DNA from: Streptomyces venezuelae
GTDB lineage: Bacteria > Actinomycetota > Actinomycetes > Streptomycetales > Streptomycetaceae
Direction: 5' to 3'
DNA: 64,000 nucleotides
Assembly: GCF_008642295.1 (NCBI RefSeq)
Contig: NZ_CP029190.1
Location: forward strand, 4,633,501-4,697,500
This document shows positions 1,627-45,450 of this stretch, in pieces (positions within the stretch are counted from its first letter, which is position 1; the number at the start of each line of letters is the position of its first letter). The translations under genes and the position numbers were made by a program. A model generated the notes under the pieces. That model worked only from the letters and a program-made list of their open reading frames with translations. It made no database searches and was not told the origin of the DNA.

Positions 1627-3321
1627 CTACGGGAGTGAATGCACCTTCGGACCCACCGCGTTGGACCAGGCGTTGCCGGCCTTCGCGTCCCAGTTCGTCG
1701 ACCAGGTCATCGCACCGCGCAGCGCCGGGTAGGTCTTGGACGGCTTGAAGGAACCGCAGCTCGTGCCGCGGGTCAGGCAGTCCAGGGCGTTGTTGACCAC
1801 GGTCGGTGAAACGTATCCGCTACCGGCCCCGCTGGGCGAGGCGGGCAGGCCCAGGCCCACCTGGGAGGGGGCGAGGCCGCCCTCCAATTGGATGCAGGCC
1901 AGCGCGGTGAGGAAGTCCACCGAGCCCTGGGAGTACACCTTGCCGTCGCAGCCCAGCATCGAGCCGCTGTTGTAGTACTGCATGTTGACGACGGTGAGGA
2001 TGTCCTTGATGTTTAGCGCCGTCTGGAAGTACGCGTTCGAGGTCGACTGCATGTCGATGGTCTGCGGGGCCATGGTGATGACCAGCGAGGGCCCGGCCTT
2101 CTGGGAGAGCGAGCGCAGCGCCTGGGTCATGTAGGTGGCGTTGAGGCCGTTCTCCAGGTCGATGTCGATCCCGTTGAAGCCGTACTCCTGCATCAGCGCG
2201 TACGCCGAGTTGGCCAGGTTGTTCGCGGAGGCCGAGTCGTTGACCGTGATGGTCCCCTTCTCGCCGCCGATCGAGAGGATGACCGATTTCCCGGCCGCCT
2301 TCTTCGCGGCGATGTCCGCCTTGAACTGCGCCACGGTGTAGCCGCCGAGGCCCGCCGAGTCGAGGTTGAAGGTGATGGCCCCGGGTGTGGCGGTGGCATC
2401 GGCGAAGGACACCGCGATGATGTCGTACTGCGCCTGGACGTCCGAGAGCCGCTGGACGGTGGCCCCGTTGTTGAAGTTCTGCCAGTAGCCGGTGACCGCG
2501 TGCCGGGGCACGGCCGGATTGCCCGGGTTGCCGGTGTCGGGTGCCGTGGTGCCGTTGACCGGGGCGGACCTCGGTCCTTCACCCGCCTGGTTGTACGCGC
2601 TCACCTGGAGGGAGTAGGTGGTCGACGGGGCCAGACCGGTGAGCTGGGTGGTGGTTCCGCTGACCGTGGCCACCCGGGAGCCGTCCCGGTAGACGTGGTA
2701 GCCGGAGGCGCCGGAGACCGCGTTCCACGAAAGGGTGAGTGCGGTGGAGCTCTGGCCGGAAACCGCGAGTCCGGCGGGTGCGCCGGGGATCGCCGGGCCG
2801 GGGTCGGTGCCCCCGCCGCCGTCCGGGCCGAACACGGAGAACTCGTCCACGTGGTAGGCGGGCTGGCCGTACCAGCCGTGGGTGTAGACGGTGACCTGGG
2901 TGGTGTTGGGTCCGGTGGAGAAGGTGGTCGACAGCTTCTGCCAGCCGCCGCCCGAGCCGGGGGTCCAGGTGGAGACGTCCTGGGTTCCGGTTCCGCTCGC
3001 GCCCAGGTACACGTAACTGCCCTGCACCTGGGTGCTCAGGGTGTAGGTGGAGTTCGGCTTGACCGTGACGGTCTGGCTGCAGCGGGCGTTGTCCTGCCCA
3101 CTCGGGGTGGCCTTGAGGGCGCCCGCCCCCGCGTACGTCGGGGAGCTGACGGCGGTTCCGCTGCCGCCGGTGCAGCTCCAGTTGGCGAGGCCGGACTCGA
3201 AGCCGCCGTTGCGGGCGACGTTGACGTCGGCGGCCTGTGCGGTACCGGTGACGAAGGCGGTGAGACCGGTCGCGGTGAGGGTGGCGGCGCCCAGCAGGGC
3301 GAGGGAGCGTCTGCGGTTCAC
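1627..3321 (-). CDS. Secreted modular GH18 chitinase (CBM - FnIII - GH18)
   Basis: An endo-type chitinase of 564 residues. The frame stays open upstream to about 4,563, but the start is set at the GTG at 3321 because it gives MNRRRSLALL and a normal signal peptide ending near AQA|AD (residue 31). Next come a beta-sandwich carbohydrate-binding module (about 32-165), a glycine-rich linker, a fibronectin type III domain (about 178-262) and a GH18 catalytic barrel (275-564). The GH18 signature DxxDxDxE appears as NGIDIDLE, with catalytic acid E390. The SIGGEKG motif of barrel strand 3 is also present. Streptomyces chitinases of this layout degrade environmental chitin. The DasR box upstream ties the gene to N-acetylglucosamine control. 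Confidence 0.95.
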   Translation of the reverse strand: MNRRRSLALLGAATLTATGLTAFVTGTAQAADVNVARNGGFESGLANWSCTGGSGTAVSSPTYAGAGALKATPSGQDNARCSQTVTVKPNSTYTLSTQVQGSYVYLGASGTGTQDVSTWTPGSGGGWQKLSTTFSTGPNTTQVTVYTHGWYGQPAYHVDEFSVFGPDGGGGTDPGPAIPGAPAGLAVSGQSSTALTLSWNAVSGASGYHVYRDGSRVATVSGTTTQLTGLAPSTTYSLQVSAYNQAGEGPRSAPVNGTTAPDTGNPGNPAVPRHAVTGYWQNFNNGATVQRLSDVQAQYDIIAVSFADATATPGAITFNLDSAGLGGYTVAQFKADIAAKKAAGKSVILSIGGEKGTITVNDSASANNLANSAYALMQEYGFNGIDIDLENGLNATYMTQALRSLSQKAGPSLVITMAPQTIDMQSTSNAYFQTALNIKDILTVVNMQYYNSGSMLGCDGKVYSQGSVDFLTALACIQLEGGLAPSQVGLGLPASPSGAGSGYVSPTVVNNALDCLTRGTSCGSFKPSKTYPALRGAMTWSTNWDAKAGNAWSNAVGPKVHSLP

Positions 3322-3711
3322 GATGGCTCCGTGGGGGGAGTCGGGGTGGGGAGAAGGGTGCGTGGGGATCCCGCAGCCAAGGTGGTCCAGACCAATCTCG
3401 CTGTCAAGAGTCTTTACAAACTGGCTGAAAACGATCGGAGTTCCCTTCCTGCTTGTCCGGGTTTTTCGCCACCTGCGACCTCCGCTCTCCGCATGGGAAT
3501 CGACAAGGCCCTGCCCTGCCGGCGAGGACGCGGATAAAGTGCTGAGGCAGGAGGGGTGGGGGCACCTCCCGGCGGCAGCCGGGGGAGCGTCGATCGTTTG
3601 CGGTCGCGCAGCATGCGCATACGCGGCGACCACAGGGACACGGCAACCACAGGGACCGGTCCCGGCGGTGGCCGGGCAGTACGGGGACGTACGGGGAACA
3701 GGGGGATTCGC
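3322..3711. other. Divergent regulatory region between chitinase and Tad locus
   Basis: About 390 bases without a credible gene. It holds the chitinase promoter and DasR box (3381-3407) and, on the other strand, presumably the promoter of the first Tad-locus gene, for which I see no clear -35/-10 pair. The open frames here have the wrong codon bias and are shadows or N-terminal run-ons of the flanking genes. Confidence 0.6.
3381..3407 (-). promoter_or_regulatory. DasR operator (dre) and -35 element of the chitinase gene
   Basis: Bases 3381-3396 read GGTGGTCCAGACCAAT, a near match to the DasR responsive element whose core is TGGTCTAGACCA. DasR is the GntR-type GlcNAc regulator that represses chitinases in Streptomyces. 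On the minus strand a perfect TTGACA (3402-3407) precedes it, so the operator sits in the spacer and over the -10 position. A bound repressor would block polymerase. The distance to the GTG is about 60 bases. Confidence 0.85.
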
Positions 3712-4545
3712 GTGCCGACCGCCATCGCTGTCACCAGCGCAGACCTGGTACTTCCGGCCCCCGACCGGCACACCCCGTCGGCCGCCGTGCTGCACCCTCC
3801 CGACCGGCTCGACCTGGAGCAGGCGCTCGCCGAAACCGCCGCCCTGCTGGACCTCCACGGCCATCTGCTGGTCGTCGTACCGTCCTGGCTGCCCGCTCCC
3901 GCCGTCCGCCGGCTGCACACCGTACGCGCCATCCTCGAAACCGACCGGATCGCGCTCCTCGGCATCGATCTGCCGCCGCTCGCCACCGCCCTGCTGGTCC
4001 GTCAGCTGCGCCAGCTCACGGTGTGCGACTTCAGCCCCGGAATCATCGCCTCGGCCGCCCGGCTGCTCTCCCACTACATCCACGCCGGCGCACTGCTGAG
4101 CAGTGTGGCCAAACTCGACCGGGTCCCCGTCGACCTCAAGGCCCACGCCCGCTCCTGGGTCTCCGGCGCCCAGTTCGCCGTCCTGGCCAACCCCACACCC
4201 CACCTGGTGAAACTCGGACCGGGAGCCGTCCTCCCGCCCGGTCCCGCCTTCGCCACCCACCTCAGCTTCGCCCGCGGCCAGCTTCCCGGAGACTGGATCG
4301 CCGCCGAACTGGCCCCCGCCTGGCAGGTTCAGGGCGTGCTGGAGAACCCGCTGCCCGCCGACTCGCCCGCCTGGTGGGGCACCCCCAAGCTGATCGAGTT
4401 CGCCGCGGCCATCCCCGACATCGCGGTCCTCTACCAGCTCGTCGCGTCCGTCCGGCGCGAGGACTGCCGATGGTGCGGCCTCGAACTCATCGGCGACCGC
4501 TGCGGCTTCTGCGCCACCCAGATCCCGGCACTCTCCAGAACCTGA
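3712..4545 (+). CDS. Tad-locus protein of unknown function with C-terminal zinc-ribbon-like Cys motif
   Basis: A 277-residue protein, first gene of the Tad/Flp cluster. The GTG at 3712 is chosen as start because the codon bias and protein-like composition begin there. No signal peptide or membrane segment is obvious. The last 35 residues hold CRWCGLELIGDRCGFC, two CxxC pairs that could bind zinc. The body is Leu/Ala-rich and carries no motif I recognise. It is 39 bases upstream of cpaB and in the same direction, so a role tied to pilus expression or assembly is inferred from position only. Confidence 0.75.
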   Translation: MPTAIAVTSADLVLPAPDRHTPSAAVLHPPDRLDLEQALAETAALLDLHGHLLVVVPSWLPAPAVRRLHTVRAILETDRIALLGIDLPPLATALLVRQLRQLTVCDFSPGIIASAARLLSHYIHAGALLSSVAKLDRVPVDLKAHARSWVSGAQFAVLANPTPHLVKLGPGAVLPPGPAFATHLSFARGQLPGDWIAAELAPAWQVQGVLENPLPADSPAWWGTPKLIEFAAAIPDIAVLYQLVASVRREDCRWCGLELIGDRCGFCATQIPALSRT

Positions 4546-4584
4546 CCCACGCTCCTGACCCACGAACGACGAGGTCCCCGGCTC

Positions 4585-5298
4585 ATGAACTCACGCCAGC
4601 GCCGCGGCGTCATCCTGTTGCTCCTCTCGGTCCTGTGCGCCCTCGGCGCCTTCGCCGGGGTGATCTCGGTGATCGGCGAGGTCAACTCGAAGGTCGGGCC
4701 CGAGGTCGTCGCCTACCGCGTCAAGAGCGACATAGCGCCCTACACCCCGCTGGACGCCGGCCGGTTCGAACAGGTGAAGATCCCCGAGCGGTGGCGGCCG
4801 ACCACCGCCGTGACCGATCTGGGCACGGTGCAGGGGAAGATCGCGGTCACCGGCCTCAAGAAGGGCTCCCTGCTCCAGTCCGACATGGTCGTGGACCGCC
4901 CCAAACTCCAGGCGGGCGAACAGGAGATCGCCATCATGATCGACCCGTCCACCGGAGTCGCCGGGAAGATCCGCCCGGGCGACCGGGTCAACATCACCGC
5001 CACCTTCAAGGGCAAGAAGGCCACCGACCCCGACCGGTCCGTGATCATCGTGGTCAACGCCAAGGTCATCGAGGTGGGCCGGCTCACCCCGGTGGAGAAG
5101 AACGGCGACCGCAAGGGCACCGGCACCGGCACCGCCGAAGCCGTGCCGATCACCTTCGCCCTCGGCAACAAGGACGTCAACCGCGTGGCCTACGCCGAAT
5201 CCTTCGCCGAACACGTCCGGCTGGCCCTGCTGCCCCCCGGCACCGAGGGCTCCGTCCCGCCCGCCGACCGCTGGTACACCCTCGACGGGGACAAGTGA
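4585..5298 (+). CDS. cpaB: Flp pilus assembly protein CpaB/RcpC (SAF domain)
   Basis: A 237-residue periplasm-side pilus assembly protein. It starts MNSRQRRGVILLLLSVLCAL, giving a short basic n-region and one membrane segment (about 9-30). A SAF domain follows, with the typical segments VVAYRVKSDIAPYTPLDA (about 45-62), TGLKKGSLLQSDM (about 90-103) and PGDRVNITATF. The RcpC/CpaB C-terminal region then continues to the end. In Gram-negative Tad systems CpaB works with the secretin. Actinobacteria have no outer membrane, so here it may organise the pilus in the cell wall. It is followed after 7 bases by the TadZ gene. Confidence 0.88.
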   Translation: MNSRQRRGVILLLLSVLCALGAFAGVISVIGEVNSKVGPEVVAYRVKSDIAPYTPLDAGRFEQVKIPERWRPTTAVTDLGTVQGKIAVTGLKKGSLLQSDMVVDRPKLQAGEQEIAIMIDPSTGVAGKIRPGDRVNITATFKGKKATDPDRSVIIVVNAKVIEVGRLTPVEKNGDRKGTGTGTAEAVPITFALGNKDVNRVAYAESFAEHVRLALLPPGTEGSVPPADRWYTLDGDK

Positions 5299-5305
5299 GG
5301 CCGGC

Positions 5306-6676
5306 ATGACCACCCGTATCCTTCCGGCCGTCTCCGACCCGGACGCCGCCCGCGTCCTGGTCACCCTGCTCGGGCAGCTCCCGGCCGCCGAGCCGGCCGC
5401 CCCGGTCCCGGACTCCACCACCCTCCTGGACACCCTGGCCCGGCTGGCCGCCGAGTCCGTCGACGCGCTGCCCGAGGTCGTCCTCGTCCACGAGCGGATC
5501 GGGCCGCTGCCCGCCCTCGACCTGATCCGTGAAGTCGCCCTCCGCTTCCCGCCGGTGGGCGTGGTCCTGGTGACCTCCGACGCCGGCCCGGCCCTGTTCT
5601 CCGCGGCCATGGACTCCGGTGCCCGCGGCCTGGTCGGGCTGCCGCTGAGTTACGAGGAACTCTCCGCCCGCGTCCAGGGCGCCGCCCAGTGGGCCGCCGG
5701 CGTACGCCGCCACCTGGGGCGGAGCGCCGGCGGGGACGTCTTCACCGGACCGGGCACCGGCCGGGTGGCCACCGTCACCGGCGCCAAGGGCGGGGTCGGC
5801 ACCACCTTCTGCGCCGTCCAGTTCGCCCTCGCCGCGGTGGCCGCCGGGCGGCGGGTGGCCCTGGTCGACATGGACCTCCAGGCCGGCGACGTCGGCTCCT
5901 ACCTGGACGTGCAGTTCCGGCGGTCGATCGCCGACCTGGCCGGCATCCAGGACATCTCCCCGCGGGTGCTCGGCGACGCCGTGTACGAGCACCCCACCGG
6001 GCTCGCCCTGCTGCTGGCACCCGGCGACGGCGAACGTGGGGAGGAGGTCGACGAACGGGCCGCCCGGCTCATCGTCACCGCCCTGCGGCACCGCTACGAC
6101 CTCGTGGTCGTCGACTGCGGCAGCCAGCTCTCCGCGGCGGGCGCCGCCACCGTGGAACGCGCCGACGTGGCCGTCCTGGTCACCACCCCGGACGTGGTCG
6201 CGGTGCGCGCCGCCAAGCGGACCGTCCGGATGTGGGAGCGGCTCCGGGTCCGCAAGGCCGAGGACACCACCATGGTGGTCAACCGCTGGACCAAGCACAC
6301 CGAGATACAGCCCTCCCTGATCGAGAAGATCACCAAGACCCGGCCCACCCGCACCCCGGTCCCGGCGAACTTCAAGGAACTCCAGTCCGTGGTCGACGCG
6401 GGCCGGGTCCAGGACCTCGACAACCGCTCGGCGGTCAAGCAGGCGCTGTGGACCCTGGCCGGTGAACTCGGCCTGCTGCGCAGCCCGGAGGAATCCGCTC
6501 CGCCGGGCCCGGGCCACCCGGATGCCGGCACCGGCGCCACCCCGGGTGCCCCGGGGGCTCCGGGCGCCACGCTGGCGCTGCGCGCCGGGGGCCCGCCGGC
6601 CCGGACGCGCGGCGGCGACCGGGGCGACCGGGGCGCGCTGGGCTCCTGGCTCCGCCGCCCGACCCGGGAGGGCTGA
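5306..6676 (+). CDS. tadZ: TadZ/CpaE-like MinD/ParA-family ATPase
   Basis: A 456-residue pilus localisation ATPase. The N-terminal 130 residues resemble a degenerate receiver-like domain, as in other TadZ/CpaE proteins. The deviant Walker A of the MinD/ParA fold, GAKGGVGTT, lies near residues 157-165. Further ParA-type motifs follow (VALVDMDLQAGDV, then VVVDCGSQ). The last 70 residues are a Gly/Pro/Ala tail that is probably disordered. In Tad systems TadZ marks the pole or site at which the machine is built. The gene sits between cpaB and the tadE pair, on the same strand with 4-7 base gaps, so it is co-transcribed. Confidence 0.88.
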   Translation: MTTRILPAVSDPDAARVLVTLLGQLPAAEPAAPVPDSTTLLDTLARLAAESVDALPEVVLVHERIGPLPALDLIREVALRFPPVGVVLVTSDAGPALFSAAMDSGARGLVGLPLSYEELSARVQGAAQWAAGVRRHLGRSAGGDVFTGPGTGRVATVTGAKGGVGTTFCAVQFALAAVAAGRRVALVDMDLQAGDVGSYLDVQFRRSIADLAGIQDISPRVLGDAVYEHPTGLALLLAPGDGERGEEVDERAARLIVTALRHRYDLVVVDCGSQLSAAGAATVERADVAVLVTTPDVVAVRAAKRTVRMWERLRVRKAEDTTMVVNRWTKHTEIQPSLIEKITKTRPTRTPVPANFKELQSVVDAGRVQDLDNRSAVKQALWTLAGELGLLRSPEESAPPGPGHPDAGTGATPGAPGAPGATLALRAGGPPARTRGGDRGDRGALGSWLRRPTREG

Positions 6677-6680
6677 CCCC

Positions 6681-7091
6681 GTGCCCAGACCCGCCGGTAC
6701 CAGCCCGACCCACGACCGCGACCGTGACCGCGACCGTGACCGCGGTCAGGTCGCCGTGGAGTTCGCCGGGATGCTGCCGTTCATCCTGCTGCTGGTCGCG
6801 GCGGTCTGGCAGTGCGTGCTGATCGGCTACGCGTTCTCCCTGGCGGGCAACGCGGCCGACGAGGCCGCCCGGGCCGGCGCGGTCACCCGCGATCCCGGTG
6901 CCTGCGCCGCGGCGGCCCAGGAGCACATCCCGGGGTCCTGGGAGACGTCCGCCGACTGCCCGGCCCCGCCCGGCACCGGCCTGTACCGGGTCTCGGTCCG
7001 CCTCCGGATCCCGATCCTGCTGCCGGGCCTGAACCTGGGCCCGCAGATCACCGGCGAAGCGGGCGCGGCGATGGAGAAGGAGACCGACTGA
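6681..7091 (+). CDS. tadE: TadE-like minor pilin (first copy)
   Basis: A 136-residue pseudopilin. The GTG at 6681 follows the tadZ stop by 4 bases. The N-terminus is an unusual run of Asp-Arg repeats (HDRDRDRDRDRG) encoded by alternating gaccgt/gaccgc units. It is followed by GQVAVEFAGMLPFILLL, in which cleavage after Gly would leave Glu at +5, the class III prepilin rule. One hydrophobic helix follows, then a soluble C-terminal region with two Cys (PGACAA and ADCPAP) that could form a disulfide. Its stop overlaps the next start (ATGA), which points to translational coupling with the second tadE. Confidence 0.85.
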   Translation: MPRPAGTSPTHDRDRDRDRDRGQVAVEFAGMLPFILLLVAAVWQCVLIGYAFSLAGNAADEAARAGAVTRDPGACAAAAQEHIPGSWETSADCPAPPGTGLYRVSVRLRIPILLPGLNLGPQITGEAGAAMEKETD

Positions 7092-7678
7092 TGCTCCCCC
7101 AACCCGGCCCGCTGCCCCACCCCGGGGCCCGGCCCACGCCCTCGTCAGCCGCCGCGTCCAGGGGCGCAGGCCGGGCCGCCAGGCCCGTGAGCCCCGCCGC
7201 AGCCGAGGTCGCGCCCGGCAGGGCCCCGGCCGGCGGCGTGCCCGCGCGCACGCCCGGGGCCGGACCCGTGCACCCGCACGGCGGGCTCCAGGCGGGGGCC
7301 GGGGGCCGTAAGGGCCGGCGGGACCGGGGGCAGGTGGCGCTGGAGTACCTCGCCTTTCTGCCGATCCTGCTGCTCATCGGCCTGGCCGGCCTCCAGCTCG
7401 GCTGGATCGCCTACGTCGAGCAGCAGGCCGAGAACGCCGCGCGGGTCGCCGCCCGTACCGCATCCCTGGACGGCATCCCGGCCGGCCAGGCCGCCGGAAT
7501 GGCCGCCATCAAGGAAGGCCTGCGGGGCCGCTCCACCGTCGACGTCGGCGGCGGGGACGCCCTCACCGCCACCGTGACCATCCAGGTCACCTCCGTCGTG
7601 CCCGGCCTCAGCTTCGAGCAACGCACGCGCACCGCCACCATGCCCAACGACGACCCGAACCCGAACCCCAACCCGTAA
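7091..7678 (+). CDS. tadE: TadE-like minor pilin (second copy) with long Pro/Ala leader
   Basis: A 195-residue TadE-family pseudopilin. Unlike the first copy it has about 80 residues of Pro/Ala/Gly-rich sequence before the prepilin motif GQVALEYLAFLPILLL (Glu at +5 after Gly). That is exceptionally long for a prepilin leader. An internal start could shorten it, but none has a convincing ribosome site. The helix is followed by ENAARVAARTASLDG, typical of TadE, and an extracellular beta-rich domain ending in an Asn-Pro repeat (DPNPNPNP). The start ATG overlaps the preceding stop. Confidence 0.82.
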   Translation: MLPQPGPLPHPGARPTPSSAAASRGAGRAARPVSPAAAEVAPGRAPAGGVPARTPGAGPVHPHGGLQAGAGGRKGRRDRGQVALEYLAFLPILLLIGLAGLQLGWIAYVEQQAENAARVAARTASLDGIPAGQAAGMAAIKEGLRGRSTVDVGGGDALTATVTIQVTSVVPGLSFEQRTRTATMPNDDPNPNPNP

Positions 7679-7693
7679 GGGGGCCGACCTGCC

Positions 7694-9031
7694 ATGAGCC
7701 TGCGTTCCAGGGTCAACACCCCCGACGACCGCCACAGCCCCCGCGAGGACGGCCGCCTGGTCTCCTCGTACCGCGCCAAACTCCTCGAGGAGATCGACCT
7801 CGCCGAAATGTCGGCGCTCGCGCCGACCGAGCGCCGCGCCCGCCTCGAACGCGTACTCGGCCACATCATCAGCCGCGAAGGCCCCGTCCTCTCCACCGTC
7901 GAGCGCGCCCAGCTGATCCGCCGTGTCGTCGACGAAGCCCTCGGCCTCGGTGTGCTCGAACCCCTCCTCGAAGACCCCACCATCTCCGAGATCATGGTCA
8001 ACGGACCGGACCACATCTATGTGGAACGAGCCGGACGCGTCGAGCAGCTCCCCCTCCGCTTCGCCTCCCACGAGCAGCTCATGCAGACCATCGAGCGCAT
8101 CGTCTCCGCCGTCAACCGCCGCGTGGACGAGGCCAATCCGATGGTCGACGCCCGCCTCCCCACCGGCGAGCGCGTCAACGTGATCATTCCGCCGCTGTCC
8201 CTGACCGGCGCCACCCTCACCATCCGCCGCTTCCCGCGCGCCTTCACCCTGCCCGAGATGATCGCCCTCGGCTCCCTCGACGAGCAGATGCTGCTGCTCC
8301 TCTCCGGCCTCGTCCAGGCCAAGATGAACGTGATCGTGTCCGGCGCCACCGGCACCGGCAAGACCACCCTCCTCAACGCCCTCTCCGGCCTGATCCCGGA
8401 GGGCGAACGCATCATCACCATCGAGGACTCGGCGGAACTCCAGCTCCAGCAGCCCCATGTGATCCGGCTGGAGTCCCGGCCCCCCAACGTCGAGGGCAAG
8501 GGCCGGATCACCATCCGCGACCTGGTCCGCAACTCCCTCCGGATGCGCCCCGACCGGATCGTCGTCGGCGAGGTCCGCGGCGGCGAGACGCTCGACATGC
8601 TCCAGGCCATGTCCACCGGCCACGACGGCTCCCTCGCCACCGTGCACGCCAACAGCGCCGAGGACGCCCTGATGCGGCTCCAGACCCTCGCCTCGATGTC
8701 CGAGGTCGAGGTCCCCTTCGAAGCCCTCCAGGACCAGATCAACAGCGCCGTCAACGTGGTCGTCCAGCTCACCCGGTTCGCCGACGGCACCCGCCGGATC
8801 ACCGAGATCTCCATCCTCGACTCGCACGGCCGCGAGCCCTTCCGGATCATCACGGTCTGCCGGTTCGCCGCCCGGCCGCTCAGCGCCGACGGACGCGTCC
8901 ACGGCCGTTTCGAGCACTACCCGCTGCCCCGCCGCATCGCCGAACGCCTCTACATGAACAACCAGCCGATCCCGCAGGCCTTCGGGGTCGCCGCCACCGA
9001 GGACCAGCTCACCACCCGGATCGCCCTGTGA
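7694..9031 (+). CDS. tadA: TadA/CpaF secretion ATPase
   Basis: A 445-residue hexameric ATPase that drives pilin polymerisation. The N-terminal domain (about 20-140) includes LEDPTISEIMVNGPD, a hallmark of the CpaF family. The Walker A is SGATGTGKTTLLNALSG at about 215-231. An Asp-box (IEDSAEL), a Walker B region (RPDRIVVGEVRGGE) and a His box (TGHDGSLATVHANS) follow in the GspE/PilT order. No residue of the catalytic set looks missing. It overlaps tadB by four bases (GTGA), so the two are translationally coupled. Confidence 0.95.
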   Translation: MSLRSRVNTPDDRHSPREDGRLVSSYRAKLLEEIDLAEMSALAPTERRARLERVLGHIISREGPVLSTVERAQLIRRVVDEALGLGVLEPLLEDPTISEIMVNGPDHIYVERAGRVEQLPLRFASHEQLMQTIERIVSAVNRRVDEANPMVDARLPTGERVNVIIPPLSLTGATLTIRRFPRAFTLPEMIALGSLDEQMLLLLSGLVQAKMNVIVSGATGTGKTTLLNALSGLIPEGERIITIEDSAELQLQQPHVIRLESRPPNVEGKGRITIRDLVRNSLRMRPDRIVVGEVRGGETLDMLQAMSTGHDGSLATVHANSAEDALMRLQTLASMSEVEVPFEALQDQINSAVNVVVQLTRFADGTRRITEISILDSHGREPFRIITVCRFAARPLSADGRVHGRFEHYPLPRRIAERLYMNNQPIPQAFGVAATEDQLTTRIAL

Positions 9032-9966
9032 CCCAGCCCGTACTCCTCACCCTCCTCGCCACGCTCCTCGCCTGCGTCCTGCTCGTCATGGGCGTCCACG
9101 CCTATGCGAAGGGCCGCGCGCAGCGAGCCGCGCTCATCGAACGCCTCTCCGCGAGCGGCGAACCGGAACCCGCCGGGCGCCGCCGCCGGTTCCGCGCCCT
9201 GGACCGGCGCCTGCGCGGCACCGCCCTCGGCCGCCGGCTCGAACCGAAACTGGCCGCCACCGGCCTGGACCTCACCCCGGGCGAGTTCTTCGCGTACATG
9301 ACCGCAGCGGTGATCGCGGTCTGGGCCGTCGCCTCCTCCCTCCTCGCGCCGTTCTTCGGCCCGGTGGCCGGCCTGATCGGCCTGTGGTCGGCGAATGCCT
9401 TCCTCAACTGGCAGCGGGCCCGCCGTACGGAGCGCTTCATCAACCAGCTCCCCGAACTGGCCCGCATCCTGGCCAACGCCACCCAGGCCGGACTGGCCCT
9501 CCGGACCGCCATCGGAATGGCGGCGGAGGAGCTGGAGGCCCCGGCCGGCGAGGAGCTCGGCCGGGTCGCGAACCGGCTGGCCGTCGGCCACTCCATCGAG
9601 GAGGCGCTCGGCGAACTCACCGACCGGCTGCCCTCCCGCGAGCTGGTCGTCCTGGTCTCCACCCTGGTGCTGTCCGCCCGCGCGGGCGGCGCGATCGTGG
9701 GCAGCCTCCGCAATCTGACCGTCACCCTGGAGCAGCGGAAGGAGACCCGCCGCGAGGTCCGCACCCAGCTGTCCCAGGTCACCGTGACCGCCTACCTGAT
9801 GCCGTTCATCGGCCTCGGCTCCCTGCTGCTGGTCGACACCCTGATGCCGGGCGCCCTGGACCGGATGACCGGCTCGGTCGCCGGCCAGATCGCGGTCCTG
9901 GCCGCCCTCGGGCTGTTCGCCCTCGGCTTCGTCTCCATCCGCCGCCTGTCGAAGATCGAAGTCTGA
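9028..9966 (+). CDS. tadB: TadB inner-membrane platform protein
   Basis: A 312-residue type II secretion F domain protein that forms the membrane platform together with TadC. It starts at the GTG at 9028, overlapping the tadA stop. It has an N-terminal membrane segment (about 3-24), a basic cytoplasmic stretch, a second pair of membrane helices (about 88-125), the T2SSF domain (LPELARILANATQAGLALRTAIG to about 240) and C-terminal membrane helices. Length and order match actinobacterial TadB. Confidence 0.92.
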   Translation: MTQPVLLTLLATLLACVLLVMGVHAYAKGRAQRAALIERLSASGEPEPAGRRRRFRALDRRLRGTALGRRLEPKLAATGLDLTPGEFFAYMTAAVIAVWAVASSLLAPFFGPVAGLIGLWSANAFLNWQRARRTERFINQLPELARILANATQAGLALRTAIGMAAEELEAPAGEELGRVANRLAVGHSIEEALGELTDRLPSRELVVLVSTLVLSARAGGAIVGSLRNLTVTLEQRKETRREVRTQLSQVTVTAYLMPFIGLGSLLLVDTLMPGALDRMTGSVAGQIAVLAALGLFALGFVSIRRLSKIEV

Positions 9967-9980
9967 GGGGCCGACCGCTG

Positions 9981-10886
9981 ATGACCGCGCCGATCGCCGG
10001 CCTGCTGCTGGCCCTCCTGGTGGCCCTCTCCGTCCTCGGAGCCTTCCACGGAATCCGCCTGTACCGCTCGGAGACCAAACTCCCCACCGACCTCGCCCTC
10101 GCCCTGGAGGTCGGAGCCACCCGCACCACGGCCGTGGGCTCGGTCGTCGACCGGATGGGCATCCGGTACGCCCCGCTGGTCCTGGGCCTGATGGGCCCCA
10201 AGCGGGTGGCGCGCAAACGCCGCCAGATCGACATGGCGGGCAACCCGGCCGGCCTGACCCTCGACCGCTACGCCGCCCGCCGTGCCGTGTACGGGGCGCT
10301 GGGCGCGGCCGGAGCCTTCGCCATGCTCCTCAACGGGCAGCTGATCCTGTCCCTGGTGATGGTCGCCTTCGGCCTGTTCTGGATCGAAGCGGGCCTCTGG
10401 TCCGCGATCCGCGTCCGTCGCGACCACATCGACCGCACCCTGCCGGACTTCCTGGACGTGCTGGCGGTGGTCGTCAGTGCGGGGCTGGGCTTCCGGCCGG
10501 CGCTGGAGCGGGTCGCCGACAAGTACGAGGGCCCCTGGTCGGACGAAATCCGTATCACCCTCCAGCAGATGGACATGGGCGTCAGCCGCCGCCAGGCCTT
10601 CGACGAACTGCGCCGGCGCAACGACAGCGAACAGGTCGCCCAGTTCGTGACCGCACTCCAGCAGGGCGAGGAACTCGGCTCGCCGATCGTGGACACGCTG
10701 ATCGCGATCGCCGAGGACATGCGCCGTACGGACGCCCAGAACGCGCGGCGGCGCGCGGCCCGGGCGGTCCCGAAGGCCACCTTCGTGGTGACCACGTTCA
10801 TGCTGCCGGGCACGATGATCCTGCTGATCGGCGGGTTCGTGTACGGGGCGGACATCGACTTCGGCGCGATGCTGGGAGCCCGCTGA
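9981..10886 (+). CDS. tadC: TadC inner-membrane platform protein
   Basis: A 301-residue paralogue of TadB. The ATG at 9981 follows the tadB stop by 14 bases. It has an N-terminal membrane helix (about 5-24), a cytoplasmic region, two helices near 95-130, and the T2SSF domain with DFLDVLAVVVSAGLGFRPALERV. It ends in a helix (FMLPGTMILLIGGFVYG). In Tad systems TadB and TadC form a heteromeric platform under the TadA ATPase. Its stop overlaps the start of the response regulator gene (ATGA). Confidence 0.92.
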   Translation: MTAPIAGLLLALLVALSVLGAFHGIRLYRSETKLPTDLALALEVGATRTTAVGSVVDRMGIRYAPLVLGLMGPKRVARKRRQIDMAGNPAGLTLDRYAARRAVYGALGAAGAFAMLLNGQLILSLVMVAFGLFWIEAGLWSAIRVRRDHIDRTLPDFLDVLAVVVSAGLGFRPALERVADKYEGPWSDEIRITLQQMDMGVSRRQAFDELRRRNDSEQVAQFVTALQQGEELGSPIVDTLIAIAEDMRRTDAQNARRRAARAVPKATFVVTTFMLPGTMILLIGGFVYGADIDFGAMLGAR

Positions 10887-11599
10887 TGCCGCCCCCGACC
10901 CCGGCCCCGACCCCGATCCGCATCCTCATCGCCGACGACGACCCGGTCATCCGGGCGGGTCTGGCCGCGCTGCTGTCCCCGCACCCCGACCTCCGGGTGA
11001 TCGCCCAGGCCACCAACGGCGGCGACGCGCTGGCCCTGACCCGCCGGCACCGCCCGGACGTGGTCCTGCTGGACGTCCGGCTGCCGGGCGTGGACGGCAT
11101 CTCGGCCCTGCCGCACCTGGTTCAGCTGGCGGCGGTCCTGATGCTGACCTCCAGCCGGGAACCGGACGTGGTCCGCGAGACGCTGCTGCTGGGCGCGAAC
11201 GGCTACTTACTGCACGGCGAGTTCACGCCGGACGACCTGACCCGCGCGGTCCGCGACGTCCACGCGGGCCGCCCGCACTTCACCCCGACGGCGGCGAGCG
11301 TGGTGCTGGCGGAGCTGCGGAGGCGGGGGTCTTCGCAGGCGCAACGAATTGTGGCACAGTCTTCGGAGCGAGTCTCCAACCACATGAATTTCGGGCTGAG
11401 TTCGAGGGAGGTGGAGGTGATGGACCTGATCGCGTCCGGAATGACAAACCAGCAGATCGCCGCCACCTGCTTCATCACCGAGAAAACGGTCAAGAACCAC
11501 ATCAACCGCATCTTCGCCAAGCTCCAGAGCGCGAGCCGCAGCGAGGCGATAGCCCGATGGCTGGGAACGATCCGTTCCGAGGTGGCGGGCCATGGGTAG
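10886..11599 (+). CDS. NarL/FixJ-type response regulator with a TTA codon, in the Tad operon
   Basis: A 237-residue regulator. The receiver domain (about 10-130) has the acidic pair in ADDDP and the phospho-acceptor D63 in LLDVRLPG. The position normally held by the conserved lysine of NarL receivers (GYLLK) is histidine here (GYLLH, H110). The C-terminal LuxR-type helix-turn-helix is complete (LSSREVEVMDLIASGMTNQQ and EKTVKNHINRIFAKL). Leu108 is encoded by TTA (11207-11209), so translation should need the bldA tRNA. No histidine kinase is adjacent. Its likely targets are the Tad genes, above all the pilin promoter that follows. Confidence 0.9.
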   Translation: MPPPTPAPTPIRILIADDDPVIRAGLAALLSPHPDLRVIAQATNGGDALALTRRHRPDVVLLDVRLPGVDGISALPHLVQLAAVLMLTSSREPDVVRETLLLGANGYLLHGEFTPDDLTRAVRDVHAGRPHFTPTAASVVLAELRRRGSSQAQRIVAQSSERVSNHMNFGLSSREVEVMDLIASGMTNQQIAATCFITEKTVKNHINRIFAKLQSASRSEAIARWLGTIRSEVAGHG

Positions 11600-11625
11600 A
11601 CGGAGTACGCAGTGGGTCCGTAGAT

Positions 11626-11669
11626 GGGTCCCAGGACCCTTTGCAAGCGCGGGTACGACTGAGTACCGT
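11626..11669 (+). promoter_or_regulatory. Pilin promoter with adjacent palindrome
   Basis: TTGCAA (11641-11646) and TACCGT (11664-11669) are separated by exactly 17 bases, a good HrdB-type promoter ending 40 bases before the Flp pilin start. Just upstream lies the palindrome GGGTCC-CA-GGACCC (11626-11639), placed where an activator or repressor would touch the -35 element. This gives the pilin a separate transcript, as expected for the major structural subunit. The link between palindrome and response regulator is inference. Confidence 0.6.
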
Positions 11670-11709: not shown

Positions 11710-11883
11710 ATGCGGAACCTCAAGTGGCACCGTTTGAAGGGCAGAGACGAGGGCCAGACGGCTTTCGAGTACCTGGGGATCGTGGTGGTGATCGTCCTGA
11801 TCATCGGGGCGATCCTCGCGTCGGGCGTCGGGGACCGGATTTCCGCGGCCATCGTGCAGGCGGTCGCCGACATCACGGGTTGA
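11710..11883 (+). CDS. flp: Flp-type pilin
   Basis: A 57-residue prepilin, the putative major subunit. The leader is a short basic stretch up to G15. Cleavage there leaves QTAFEYLGIVVVIVLIIG with Glu at +5 and Tyr at +6, the Flp signature. A single long hydrophobic helix follows, and the mature peptide is about 42 residues. A strong ribosome site (GGGAGGGG) lies 6 bases before the ATG. The prepilin peptidase at 23963 is the only candidate processing enzyme in the window. Its stop overlaps the next start in the motif TTGA. Confidence 0.9.
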   Translation: MRNLKWHRLKGRDEGQTAFEYLGIVVVIVLIIGAILASGVGDRISAAIVQAVADITG

Positions 11884-12530
11884 GGCCGCTCGCGGAGGGC
11901 AAGCGGGACCGAGGGCAGACCTTCCCTCTCTACGTCGTCGTGGTGGCCGGTCTGCTCTTCGCCGCGCTTGCCCTGTTCGTCGTCGGGTTTGCAGGAGCAG
12001 CTCGCAGTGACGGCCAAGGCGCCGCCGATGCAGCCGCACTGGCCGCCGCAGGTGAAGTCAGAGACGACGTCTTCACGGGGCTGGTGTTGGACGATCTCAC
12101 TCCGGACGACTGGGGCGATCTCCTCGGCGGTGACTTCTTCGACGTGGGCGCGGCATGCGCGGAGGCAGGCAGCTTCGCTGCGCAGAACGACGCCTCCGTC
12201 ACCGGGTGCGAACCGGCGCTTCCCCGCGTCACCGTTGACGTACGGACGAACCGTGCGGTGGGCGACTCGGTCGTTCCGGGGACGGAGAGCACCTACGCCG
12301 TCGCCTCGGCCACCGCTGTCATCGAGCCGCGCTGCACTCTCGACCCAGCGCCGACGGCCACGGCCACGCCATCGCCCACGCCGAATCCTCCGAATCCGCC
12401 GACTCCACCCGTCCCCGATCCGGTCAACTTCCTGTGCGAGGACGGGAAAGACTTCAAGCTTGATCCTCTGGACCCAGGGGAGCCGGCGGAGCTGGCGCGC
12501 AGACTCTTCAAAGTGAGGCTGGACGGCTGA
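11880..12530 (+). CDS. TadG-like pilus-associated protein
   Basis: A 216-residue membrane-anchored protein starting at TTG 11880, which overlaps the pilin stop by three bases. The N-terminus RDRGQTFPLYVVVVAGLLFA mimics the pilin motif but has Leu instead of Glu at +5, so it may be inserted without cleavage. A segment typical of TadE/TadG follows (GQGAADAAALAAAG). The outer domain has two Cys (GAACAEA and SVTGCEP), then a Pro/Thr/Asn linker (PTPNPPNPPTPP) and two more Cys at about 174 and 194. It is probably a minor pilin or tip protein. The family assignment is moderate. Confidence 0.72.
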   Translation: MRPLAEGKRDRGQTFPLYVVVVAGLLFAALALFVVGFAGAARSDGQGAADAAALAAAGEVRDDVFTGLVLDDLTPDDWGDLLGGDFFDVGAACAEAGSFAAQNDASVTGCEPALPRVTVDVRTNRAVGDSVVPGTESTYAVASATAVIEPRCTLDPAPTATATPSPTPNPPNPPTPPVPDPVNFLCEDGKDFKLDPLDPGEPAELARRLFKVRLDG

Positions 12531-12561: not shown

Positions 12562-13149
12562 ATGAGCATTCGGCGGACGGTGCAGGCCGGCAGGGGAGCG
12601 CCCGTGGTTGTCGCGGCGGTCCTGACGCTCACTCTGGCCGGGTGCGGAATCGGCGATGACGAGAAGCCGAAGGCGGCGCAGCCCAGCGCTTCGGCTTCCC
12701 AGGGGTCGGCCGGCACTCGCAGTCCCGTGCCCAACGCGCCGAGTACAGCCGTGGAAGAGGTCATTGCGACGTCGAACGGTCCGGAATCCCTGGTGCTGGA
12801 GATCAACTCGGCCGTCCGGGACCCGGGTGGGTTCGTCACCGTCAACGGAAAGATCAAGAACAACGGTTCCGGCAAGTACGTGCAGACCCAGATCTGGCGC
12901 GGGACCGAGAAGAACGCGAGCCCCAACTCGATCGCAGGAGCCACCCTGGTCGACCGGGCGGGCAAGAAGCGCTACTACGTGCTCAGGGACACGGAGGGGC
13001 GGTGCCTTTGCACGACTTCCATCCTGTCCATTGACGCGGGCGGCTCTGTATCCGTGACGGCGCAGTTCCCCGCGCCGCCATCCGCCACGACAGAGGTCGA
13101 CTTCGGCCTGCCCACATTCGCCACGGTAGCCATCAAGATCTCCGGGTGA
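12562..13149 (+). CDS. Lipoprotein of unknown function, downstream of the pilus genes
   Basis: A 195-residue secreted lipoprotein. The signal peptide ends in the lipobox LAGC at about residues 26-29. A Ser/Ala-rich linker (about 36-55) leads into a beta-rich domain of about 130 residues with a second Cys pair (GRCLCTTS). I do not recognise the domain. It lies 31 bases after the TadG-like gene and 4 bases before the OmpA-domain gene, so it is likely co-transcribed with them and may help anchor the pilus at the cell surface. That role is inferred only from position. Confidence 0.8.
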   Translation: MSIRRTVQAGRGAPVVVAAVLTLTLAGCGIGDDEKPKAAQPSASASQGSAGTRSPVPNAPSTAVEEVIATSNGPESLVLEINSAVRDPGGFVTVNGKIKNNGSGKYVQTQIWRGTEKNASPNSIAGATLVDRAGKKRYYVLRDTEGRCLCTTSILSIDAGGSVSVTAQFPAPPSATTEVDFGLPTFATVAIKISG

Positions 13150-13153
13150 CCCC

Positions 13154-13786
13154 ATGACCACACGCCACCGCGTATCCGCCGCCACCGCCATAGTCGGCCT
13201 GGTCATCGCCGGGGCCCACTTCGTCGGTGCGGCCAGCGCCCACGCCGACGACGATCCGACCGCGCCCCCCGGGACCGAGCCCCTGGCCGCGGCGCCCGTT
13301 GCCATCGACTCCAATTCGCCCGGACTCAAGATGCCCCAAGGCGGAGTGCTCGCCGCGCCCAAGGTGCTCGACATCGCCGAGGTCGTCGAGGACCTCGGGG
13401 GTGAGCAGCGGCGGCAGGAGACCAATCAGACCGTGATGATGGCCCTTCAGGCCGAGGTGCTGTTCCCCGAGGACAGTGATGTCCTCAACGCCCAGGCCTC
13501 GGCCCGCATCCAGGCCATCGGCCAGGAGATCAACCAGCAGAAGGCCACCCGCGTCCGGGTGTTCGGCTTCACCGACGACCAGGGCAGCTACGAACACGGC
13601 AAGGTGCTCTCCAAGAAGCGCGCCGATGCCGTGCAGCGGGAGTTGGCCAAGACGGTGACCAATCCGTCCGTCGTCTTCGACATCCGCGGCTACAGCGAGG
13701 ACTACCCGATCGCCGACAACAAGACCGAAGAGGGCCGCAAGAAGAACCGCCGCGTGGAGATCACGTTCCCCCGCGGGGCCTCGTAA
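13154..13786 (+). CDS. Secreted OmpA-family peptidoglycan-binding protein
   Basis: A 210-residue exported protein: a signal peptide (1-30, ending ASAHA|DD), about 65 residues of linker, then an OmpA C-terminal domain (about 95-210). The peptidoglycan-binding core is visible as VRVFGFTDDQGSYEHG, LSKKRADAVQREL and EEGRKKNRRVEITF, the last holding the Arg that contacts diaminopimelate in OmpA-like proteins. In a Gram-positive cell it would bind the wall, so it could tether the pilus base. It starts 4 bases after the lipoprotein stop. Confidence 0.87.
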   Translation: MTTRHRVSAATAIVGLVIAGAHFVGAASAHADDDPTAPPGTEPLAAAPVAIDSNSPGLKMPQGGVLAAPKVLDIAEVVEDLGGEQRRQETNQTVMMALQAEVLFPEDSDVLNAQASARIQAIGQEINQQKATRVRVFGFTDDQGSYEHGKVLSKKRADAVQRELAKTVTNPSVVFDIRGYSEDYPIADNKTEEGRKKNRRVEITFPRGAS

Positions 13787-23836: not shown

Positions 23837-23962
23837 GGGGTGCTGCTCCTTCCCGAGATGCCGGCAGGCCGGGCGAGGTCACCGGTCGGCCGCTCCAGGT
23901 TAGGGGGAATGGGGCCCCCGGGCCCATGGCCCTTCCGGCCGCACATCCCTAGGGTCGGCGGG

Positions 23963-42942: not shown

Positions 42943-45450
42943 TCAGTGCCGGTCGCGCCCGCCCGGCAGCCCGAGCTCGAACCAGACGACCTTTCCACTG
43001 CTCAGCCGGGTCGCACCCCAGCGCCGGGCCATCCGGTTCACCAGGAACAGGCCGCGCCCGCCCTCGTCGGTGTCCCGGGCCCGCCGCTGCCGGGGCAGCT
43101 GCGGGGAGTCGTCCCCGACCTCGCAGCGCAGTACGTCCGTCCGCAGCAGACGCAGCGTCACCGGCCGCTCCGCGTACCGGACGGCATTGGTCACCACCTC
43201 GCTGACCAGCAGCTCCAGCGAATCGGTCAGCTCCTCCAGACCCCACCGGGACAGCGCCCGGCGGGCGAACCGGCGGGCCCGGCCGGGAGCCGTCTCCTCC
43301 GGGTCGAGGAACCAGTACGCCACATCACTGGGCGCGATCCCGTCGAAGCGGGCGGCGAGCAGCGCGATGTCGTCGTCCCGGTCGCCGGGTCCCAGCATGT
43401 CGAGCACGTCGTCGCAGAGGGCCTCCAGCGGCGGCGGATGGTCCAGGCCGGTCAGCTGGGCGGTGGCCGCCAGCCGTTCCCGCAGCTGCTCGATCCCGGT
43501 CCACACGTCCCGGAGCCGGGACTCCACCAGGCCGTCGGTGTACAGCAGCAGGGTGGCCCCGGCCGGTGCGTCCAGCTCGACGGCCTCGAAGTCGACCCCG
43601 CCGACTCCGATGGGCGCGCCCGGCGGCACCCGGAGCACCTCGGCACGGCCGCCGAGGTGCAGCAGCACCGGCGGCGGGTGTCCCGCGTTGGCGATGGTGA
43701 TCCGGTGCGAGACCGGGTCGTACACGGCGTACAGGCAGGTCGCCATCCGGTCCGAACCCAGCCGCTGGGCCTGCTCGTCGAGGTGGTGCAGGACCTCGCC
43801 GGGCGGCAGGTCCAGCTGGGCCAGGGTCTGGGCGGTGGTCCGCAGCTGGCCCATGATCGCGGCGGAGGTCATGGAATGGCCCATGACGTCGCCGACCACC
43901 AGCGCGACCCGGCTGCCGGGCAGCGGTATGGCGTCGTACCAGTCGCCGCCGACCCGGGCGGTCTCGGCGGCCGGCAGGTACCGGGAGGCCAGCCGCACCC
44001 CGGTCGGCTGCGGCAGCGAGTCCGGCAGCATGGTGCGCTGCAGCTCGTCGGCGATGTAGGCCTCGCGGCCGTACAGCACCGCCTTGTCGATGCCGAGTGC
44101 GGTGTGGGTGGCCAGCTGGGCGGCGACCAGCAGGTCGTTGGGCTCGAACGCGGGCCGCTCCGGGCTGCGCAGGAACACGGCGGCACCGATCACCCGCCGC
44201 CGGCCGCGCAGCGGCGCCAGTACGGCACGCTGGCCGCGCGGCACCGGATGGTCGGCGCCGAGCAGCTCGGGCAGCGCGGCCCGGGCCGCGGCGGAGGACC
44301 CGAACACGGGCCGTACGCCGCGCAGCACCTCGGCGAGCGCCCCGCCGGGCCGGATCTCGCACAGCTCGGCGGCGGGCAGGTCGCCCTGCGGGCCGAGGAG
44401 GGGGAGCTGGCTGAAGTCGAGCTCGCCGGCGGCCCCCGTGGCCGCCGCGGTCCCGGTGGCTTCCAGCCCGCTGCCGAGTTCGTCGATCGGCCGCAGCCGG
44501 TCGGTGCGGCGCAGCCTTAAGACGACGGGGCCGACCGGCCGTTCGTCGCCGACCGGGAGCGGATCGCGCAGGTAGACGAGGATCGCGTCGGAGAAGGTCG
44601 GCACGGTGGCCCGGCACAGGCCGAGCACGATCTCGTCGAGGTCGATGCCGCGGGCGATCCGCCGGGTCGCGGCGCCCACGAAGCGCAGCCGGTCGCCCTC
44701 GCGGCGGGCGGCCGTGACATCGGCAGCGGCCGGTATGGCGCCCCCGGCACCCGAGCCCGTGGCGCCGACCGCCGCCGCGGCACCGGCCGGTGACGGTCCG
44801 TCGGGCAGCTCCGGGCCCGGACCCGGGCGGTCCGGGCCGGCCGCGGGTCCGGCGGCGGAGCCGGCCGCGGAGGCGGCGGCATGCGCGGCTGCCGGGGTAC
44901 GGGCGGCTGCCGTCCCGCCGCGCGGGCCCGGCAGACCGGCCTGGGCGGCCTTCCGGGCGGCTGCGGCGTCACGGGCCTGCCGGGCGGCCTCCGCACGGCC
45001 GCGGTGGCCGCCGCCGGGGGTTCCGCCGGCCGGCCGGGATGCCGGGACCGTCTCGGGGCCGGGCTCCGGGCCGTCGGTGCCGCCGGGAGTCGCCCGGGCC
45101 GCCTCGGGGGCCGCTCCGGAAGCCGCGCCCCGGCCCGGGCCGGGGCCGGCGCCCGCGGCCGGGCCCGCAGCCGCGTCCTGGGCGAGCCCGTCGCGGGCCC
45201 GCGCTCCGGCCGGATCGTCGTCGGCCGGGGCCGGGGCCTTTCCGTGGCCGAGGTCGCCGGGGTCGACCGGGCCGGCCCGGTCGCTGCGGCTGCCCGGCCC
45301 GGTGGTGCCCGGCATGCTCTGCGCGCCCACGGCGGAGCCGGGCGCGGCCTGGCCCCGCGCACCCCGCCGCGCCCGCCGCGGCCCGGGCACGTCGGAGCTG
45401 CCCGCCGCGGCAGGCTGCGGGCCGTCGTGGGACGTGGGGTACTCCGTCAC
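42943..45450 (-). CDS. SpoIIE-type PP2C phosphatase with GAF and anti-sigma kinase domains, TTA codon
   Basis: An 835-residue signalling protein. The GTG at 45450 is taken as start, giving MTEYPTSHDGPQ. Residues 10-240 are Ala/Pro/Gly/Arg-rich and look disordered. A GAF-like domain follows (LRFVGAATRRIARGIDLDEIVLGLC to about 480). The PP2C/SpoIIE domain has ETARVGGDWYDAIPLPG and VVGDVMGHSMTSAAIMGQLR. The C-terminal HATPase_c_2 domain (from about 700) has LLVSEVVTNAVRYA and GGRGLFLVNRMARRWG. Such proteins act on anti-anti-sigma factors. Leu311 is a TTA codon (44518-44520, in frame), so translation should depend on bldA. Confidence 0.93.
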   Translation of the reverse strand: MTEYPTSHDGPQPAAAGSSDVPGPRRARRGARGQAAPGSAVGAQSMPGTTGPGSRSDRAGPVDPGDLGHGKAPAPADDDPAGARARDGLAQDAAAGPAAGAGPGPGRGAASGAAPEAARATPGGTDGPEPGPETVPASRPAGGTPGGGHRGRAEAARQARDAAAARKAAQAGLPGPRGGTAAARTPAAAHAAASAAGSAAGPAAGPDRPGPGPELPDGPSPAGAAAAVGATGSGAGGAIPAAADVTAARREGDRLRFVGAATRRIARGIDLDEIVLGLCRATVPTFSDAILVYLRDPLPVGDERPVGPVVLRLRRTDRLRPIDELGSGLEATGTAAATGAAGELDFSQLPLLGPQGDLPAAELCEIRPGGALAEVLRGVRPVFGSSAAARAALPELLGADHPVPRGQRAVLAPLRGRRRVIGAAVFLRSPERPAFEPNDLLVAAQLATHTALGIDKAVLYGREAYIADELQRTMLPDSLPQPTGVRLASRYLPAAETARVGGDWYDAIPLPGSRVALVVGDVMGHSMTSAAIMGQLRTTAQTLAQLDLPPGEVLHHLDEQAQRLGSDRMATCLYAVYDPVSHRITIANAGHPPPVLLHLGGRAEVLRVPPGAPIGVGGVDFEAVELDAPAGATLLLYTDGLVESRLRDVWTGIEQLRERLAATAQLTGLDHPPPLEALCDDVLDMLGPGDRDDDIALLAARFDGIAPSDVAYWFLDPEETAPGRARRFARRALSRWGLEELTDSLELLVSEVVTNAVRYAERPVTLRLLRTDVLRCEVGDDSPQLPRQRRARDTDEGGRGLFLVNRMARRWGATRLSSGKVVWFELGLPGGRDRH

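Follow-up and report, generated by a model that had tools for sequence, protein, structure and literature searches.

Does a rare TTA codon in the regulatory gene of a Tad/Flp pilus locus place the pilus of Streptomyces venezuelae under the control of bldA? The question was raised on a stretch of 64 000 nucleotides (the window), in which a NarL-type regulator gene within the Tad operon was seen to carry TTA, and the original prediction was that the pilus would be turned on solely as part of development. Here, we have followed the codon through the regulator gene, its orthologues and the DNA upstream of the pilin gene.

Organisation of the Tad locus

The locus encodes TadA, TadB, TadC, TadE/G, TadZ and a Flp pilin, the assignment of the pilin and TadG being made on weaker evidence, and thus belongs to the Tad/Flp type. 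Its genes are as follows.

4585..5298, plus strand: RcpC/CpaB-like (SAF), by Pfam
5306..6676, plus strand: TadZ/CpaE-like ParA ATPase, by Pfam
6681..7091, plus strand: TadE-like, by Pfam
7334..7678, plus strand: TadE-like, by Pfam
7694..9031, plus strand: TadA/CpaF ATPase (T2SSE 1.8e-77; TIGR03819 below its cut-off)
9028..9966, plus strand: TadB (T2SSF)
9981..10886, plus strand: TadC (T2SSF, DUF5936)
10886..11599, plus strand: NarL/LuxR-type response regulator of the Tad locus, 237 aa (Pfam Response_reg 2.3e-21, GerE 1.9e-19)
11710..11883, plus strand: Flp-type pilin, 57 aa, QTAFEYLGIVVVIV, named by eye from its sequence (no Pfam match)
11880..12530, plus strand: TadG-like gene, start approximate (Pfam Tad weak, below cut-off; core matched in 187 loci)
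12562..13149, plus strand: small lipoprotein-like gene (LAGC read by eye in the DNA; no Pfam match)
13154..13786, plus strand: OmpA-domain protein, by Pfam

The regulator gene lies between tadC and the pilin gene, and its ATG overlaps the stop codon of tadC (TGATG). With a receiver and a LuxR/GerE helix-turn-helix domain, its product is a NarL/FixJ-type response regulator, the best solved relatives of which are DevR and NarL. Just upstream of the tad locus is a chitinase-like gene (GH18, fn3, CBM) at 1627-4563 on the minus strand, the start of which is uncertain; a plus-strand gene call opposite it, at 3712-4545, is probably spurious.

The TTA codon and its chance level in the genome

The codon itself was found as predicted, in frame within the regulator open reading frame.

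11207..11209, plus strand: TTA, codon 108 of 237, followed by C; Leu in 188/189 aligned proteins

Leucine is otherwise encoded in this gene by 23 CTG and 3 CTC codons. The accompanying statement that the genes of the window hold two in-frame TTA codons was likewise correct (exactly 2 of 63 gene calls), the second being codon 311 (44518-44520, minus strand) in the gene for a SpoIIE-type phosphatase (42943-45450, minus strand). A SpoIIE-family gene of S. coelicolor has a conserved TTA at nt 127-129, according to the accessible text of PMC10327506. Leucine codons over the 63 genes are distributed as CTG 1227, CTC 639, CTT 18, TTG 16, TTA 2 and CTA 2. When the same genome (7.5 Mb, one contig) was sampled in 20 segments of 20 kb with similar gene calling, TTA was present in 9/314 gene calls (2.9%), a baseline that agrees with the range of 51 to 505 TTA-bearing ORFs per Streptomyces genome (mean 177) in the same accessible text (PMC10327506). 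About 1.8 TTA genes would be expected among 63 at this baseline, and the two observed are therefore ordinary for the genome, with no excess over chance. The genome also encodes a tRNA-Leu with anticodon TAA (bldA type), so that of the marks of a bldA-dependent gene both the in-frame codon and the gene for its cognate tRNA-Leu(UAA) are present.

Conservation of codon 108 among orthologues

Orthologous loci, 200 in all, were taken from the best 80 of 528 GTDB candidates and from genus-drawn genomes, the latter giving 120 loci among 392 genomes searched (one per non-own genome passing E 1e-60). Removal of 12 duplicates left 188 orthologues, or 189 with the window. But for one, titled Actinobacteria bacterium OV320, the best 80 of the 528 GTDB loci are from Streptomyces, and the organisms named for close regulator proteins in the protein database are all Streptomyces. 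TTA encodes residue 108 in the window alone and in 0/188 orthologues. The 28 orthologues of at least 70% identity (71-75%) use CTG (16), CTC (9) or TTG (3) at this residue, and none of the 28 carries TTA anywhere in the gene.

The original prediction had named a lack of conservation of the TTA codon in Streptomyces orthologues as the result that would speak against it, and for codon 108 this is what was found. Conservation of a TTA site is a sign of function and no strict requirement of bldA dependence; nevertheless, codon 108, taken alone, provides no conserved link between development and the pilus in the sequences compared. The protein database contains nearer relatives of the regulator, of 82-84% protein identity, outside the set of 188; among 395 relatives searched, the nearest DNA was at 75-76% identity. 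Since the DNA compared stops short of these nearer relatives, TTA108 may be common to a few close kin.

Recurrence of TTA elsewhere in the regulator gene

TTA is found somewhere in the regulator gene of 38/188 orthologues, with 42 codons spread over 16 aligned columns, not counting that of the window (the alignment of the linker is rough). The two samples, which overlap, gave 25/120 for the genus-drawn loci and 15/80 for the best GTDB matches (80 of 528); the loci are related by descent, and such counts are not statistically independent. Against this stands a frequency of 0-2% in neighbouring tad genes of the same loci, with TTA in cpaF (1/168), tadB (0/168), tadC (2/168), the two TadE-like genes (2/109 and 0/142), tadZ (0/61), RcpC (0/4), the pilin gene (0/115), the OmpA gene (1/182), the lipoprotein gene (0/186) and the TadG core (0/187). 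An apparently TTA-rich TadG (14/187) was discarded, as the first part of the query covered the pilin gene in a wrong frame and the core alone accounts for none of these codons.

Three sister NarL-type regulators, read by tblastn, carried TTA in 0/49, 0/29 and 0/26 loci. The initial sister loci were best matches and thus skewed to near relatives, where the Tad regulator is also free of TTA; the 29 loci of the first sister were therefore widened by 20, including the 13 genomes still left in which the Tad regulator occurs as well. In the 27 genomes in which both genes were read, TTA is present in the Tad regulator in 7 and in the first sister in 0. The matched comparison is weak for the second and third sisters, since TTA is present in the Tad regulator in 1/12 and 3/17 of the genomes shared with them. 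On a quick protein tree the presence of TTA changes state at least 22 times, a tree-dependent figure in which gain and loss are not separable. Because TTA lies at other positions in 38/188 orthologues and changes state so often, its recurrence at the level of the gene fits a bldA gate set lineage by lineage rather than a fixed one. The TTA codons of the regulator family are followed by C in 35/43 cases, as compared with 131/274 for TTG; in work on ccaR, TTA followed by C is reportedly a leaky context.

Tolerance of TTA as the leading alternative

The close and leading rival is mere tolerance, whereby a weakly expressed, fast-evolving regulator puts up with rare codons and TTA drifts in and out in all lineages. 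We regard this as a plausible account, if somewhat short of an even chance. The genome baseline of 9/314 genes, the lack of TTA in the 28 closest orthologues compared and its absence at residue 108 from every other orthologue all sit well with drift, and low conservation is typical of most TTA codons in the accessible text of PMC10327506. The window protein is moreover unusually divergent at conserved sites, departing at 5/93 near-invariant columns (N19D, M66L, Y89S, A99T and V109L), which places it at rank 3 of 189. These departures suggest relaxed or shifted constraint in its lineage and make adaptation alone a weaker explanation of its TTA. Across the family, TTA-bearing and TTA-free orthologues are alike in departures at near-invariant columns (medians 0 and 0).

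Drift is also favoured by the concentration of the orthologues' TTA codons in a single AT-relaxed segment.

11282..11389, plus strand: linker between the two domains (residues 133-168), in orthologues variable and AT-relaxed; 32/42 of their TTA codons lie here

The linker has a GC3 of 0.64 in orthologues as opposed to 0.90-0.92 for the two domains, A/T-ending codons are common in it, and its TTA/TTG ratio is 0.31; the window's own linker holds no TTA. Over the whole regulator gene, GC3 across loci is 0.86, with 273 TTG codons. What drift explains less readily is that two genes of the same loci with still lower GC3 and more TTG, TadG (0.82, 302 TTG) and the lipoprotein gene (0.83, 305 TTG), have 0 TTA, and that the first sister regulator has none where the Tad regulator has 7 in the shared genomes, albeit that the sister regulators show a tight codon bias (GC3 0.94). 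Expected TTA was judged by these same-locus controls and not by an independence estimate of CTA x TTG / CTG. With stratification by the local GC3 of non-leucine codons, 42 TTA codons were observed against 21.3 expected from TadG and the lipoprotein gene (Mantel-Haenszel chi2 54), a comparison in which the lowest GC3 bins hold few control leucine codons (25 and 129) and the rows are interrelated by kinship. Thus AT-richness appears to account for the excess only in part. The stratified excess is strong, though not conclusive, and would fit either selection for TTA or a greater tolerance of it in the regulator.

A conserved operator-like site and putative -10 upstream of the pilin gene

The DNA between the regulator stop codon and the pilin gene holds the following elements.

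11613..11619, plus strand: upstream half-site TGGGTCC, 12 bp before a second TGGGTCC; TGGGYCC at this offset in 115/177 loci
11626..11639, plus strand: conserved palindrome GGGTCCCAGGACCC, putative operator; GGGYCC-NN-GGRCCC in 178/189 loci
11664..11669, plus strand: putative -10 TACCGT of the pilin promoter, 38 nt past the palindrome start and 46 nt before the pilin ATG

The palindrome was sought within 250 nt of the regulator stop with a centre of 0 to 4 bases allowed, and the centre was always of 2; shuffled DNA gave it in about 1/189. Ten of the other 11 loci have, by eye, a palindrome with one mismatch, and one (L230) is without it. TAnnnT lies exactly 38 nt past the palindrome start in 178/178 loci and no more than twice at each of the other offsets between 20 and 69, its commonest forms being TACGGT (70), TACGTT (52) and TACCGT (27). 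The palindrome would be centred at about -43 from the predicted transcription start, in place of a -35. Composite elements of palindrome and TAnnnT are rare elsewhere, with 4 in 2.08 Mb of loci and window. The palindrome alone is not enriched, occurring 21 times in the genome, under the 40 of a reversed-pattern control; of 15 genomic palindromes examined with their flanks, two have TAnnnT at +38, namely the pilin site and that at 23912 in the window. This second window palindrome (23912-23925) probably has its TAnnnT by chance.

An inverted repeat that directly follows a stop codon and is itself mostly followed by T (124/131 aligned) could also be a terminator or an RNA element parting the regulator and pilin transcripts. 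We consider this very unlikely. The Y/R pair is C-A, which is unable to pair in RNA, in 85/178 palindromes, and the palindrome is thus conserved as DNA and not as an RNA hairpin; the additional direct half-site in 115/177 loci and the invariant 38-nt spacing to TAnnnT would moreover be needless for a terminator. The layout of 11613-11669 is best read as an activator site joined to a -10. That the Tad regulator itself binds the palindrome is our inference, drawn from the adjacency of the site to its gene and their joint conservation. The operator-like site, together with the -10 at a fixed distance from it, is the firmest of the new details at this locus.

An atypical receiver

Receivers of response regulators are phosphorylated by means of a canonical set of residues, comprising an acidic pair, Asp, Thr/Ser and Lys. 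In the Tad regulator and its aligned orthologues Asp63 and Thr88 are each present in 189/189 proteins, and the Lys of NarL and DevR is replaced by His110 in 188/189 aligned orthologues. The canonical set is thus incomplete and the receiver atypical. No kinase was found among the 20 Pfam-scanned proteins covering the tad genes, and this regulator family may work without classical phosphorylation.

A proposed role for the regulator and its TTA codon

We favour, with a probability of roughly 0.55, the view that the regulator is a dedicated activator of the pilin operon and that TTA acts as a bldA brake on the regulator, and hence on the pilin, installed lineage by lineage. Expressed as the last gene of the tad machinery operon, the NarL-type protein would bind the TGGGYCC/palindrome site, which lies near -43 in the pilin promoter, replacing the missing -35, and recruit RNA polymerase to the fixed -10. 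Its gene would often gain and lose TTA, a single such codon having presumably arisen at Leu108 in the lineage of the window. Where TTA is present, full translation of the regulator would await the bldA tRNA, and pilin synthesis would be damped early in growth; the assembly machinery, encoded upstream, would escape direct gating, so that the pilin would be affected more than the machinery. This scheme starts from the codon, its absence in the relatives compared, the family-wide excess of TTA and the conservation of the operator and -10, all of which are observed. What we infer from these is that the regulator binds the site and activates the pilin operon, as well as whatever influence TTA may have on expression.

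A bolder form of the brake would hold that Streptomyces repeatedly install it on the Tad regulator and remove it again, with the adjacent structural genes kept clear of TTA, and that it acts through the one operator upstream of the pilin, so that the machine is built early and the fibre only once the bldA tRNA is ripe. We put this forward tentatively and doubt it more than we believe it; if true, it would give a tunable switch between surface pili and development. The strict version, in which Flp pili are limited to development by bldA under a programme conserved throughout the genus, draws on the recurrence of TTA in the regulator at family level and is highly improbable, since 150/188 orthologues, including all 28 close ones, have no TTA in the gene and the genus as a whole thus does not rely on it.

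The original claim of a pilus made only with development was too strong. Its core, a TTA-bearing regulator, gains from the 38/188 orthologues with TTA and loses by the 0/188 with TTA at codon 108; UUA can also be mistranslated without bldA (accessible parts of PMC4932002 and PMC3814723), and we predict that the regulator acts on the pilin operon, not on the whole locus. The locus offers a compact unit in which a regulator of atypical receiver is combined with a single conserved operator, its -10 at a fixed distance, and the pilin. Because about 20% of orthologues have TTA and 80% are without it, with the operator nearly always present, the family is a natural experiment on selected as against tolerated TTA.

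Comparison with known systems

Among the matches listed, no study of the regulation of Flp/Tad pili in Streptomyces was found in the open literature, nor any title or abstract there joining bldA and Flp pili in Streptomyces (most subscription journals lie outside it). The class of mechanism, a TTA-bearing regulator that places its targets under bldA, is known already: such regulators are established to pass bldA dependence to their targets, and the bldA dependence of SCO4251-4253 is caused by the TTA-bearing LuxR-family regulator SCO4263 (accessible text of PMC2000904). The Tad regulator resembles actII-ORF4, redZ, adpA and SCO4263 in being a TTA-bearing regulatory gene that would pass bldA dependence to targets, and SCO4263 is likewise of the LuxR family and near its targets (same text of PMC2000904). 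It differs from all four in that the predicted target is a Tad/Flp pilus and in that bldA dependence is here predicted from sequence. Whereas the adpA TTA is present in 14/14 streptomycetes tabulated in the accessible part of PMC4255298, the codon position in the Tad regulator is not conserved. Recurrence of TTA at gene level across species is shared with the frequently TTA-bearing Streptomyces genes of Table 2 in that part of PMC4255298, where the Tad regulator is not recognisable from the SCO numbers and functions given and where its frequency of about 20% would fall below most entries.

The nearest counterpart in a pilus locus is PprB of Pseudomonas aeruginosa, a regulator of the same NarL/LuxR class, sited within the tad locus and exerting direct positive control of Flp genes (accessible text of PMC3510237). 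In P. aeruginosa the locus also contains PprA, the kinase that partners PprB, and the control exerted by PprB extends to the machinery genes. In contrast, no kinase is found among the scanned genes of the Streptomyces tad locus, and the sole composite site found near the locus is that at the pilin.
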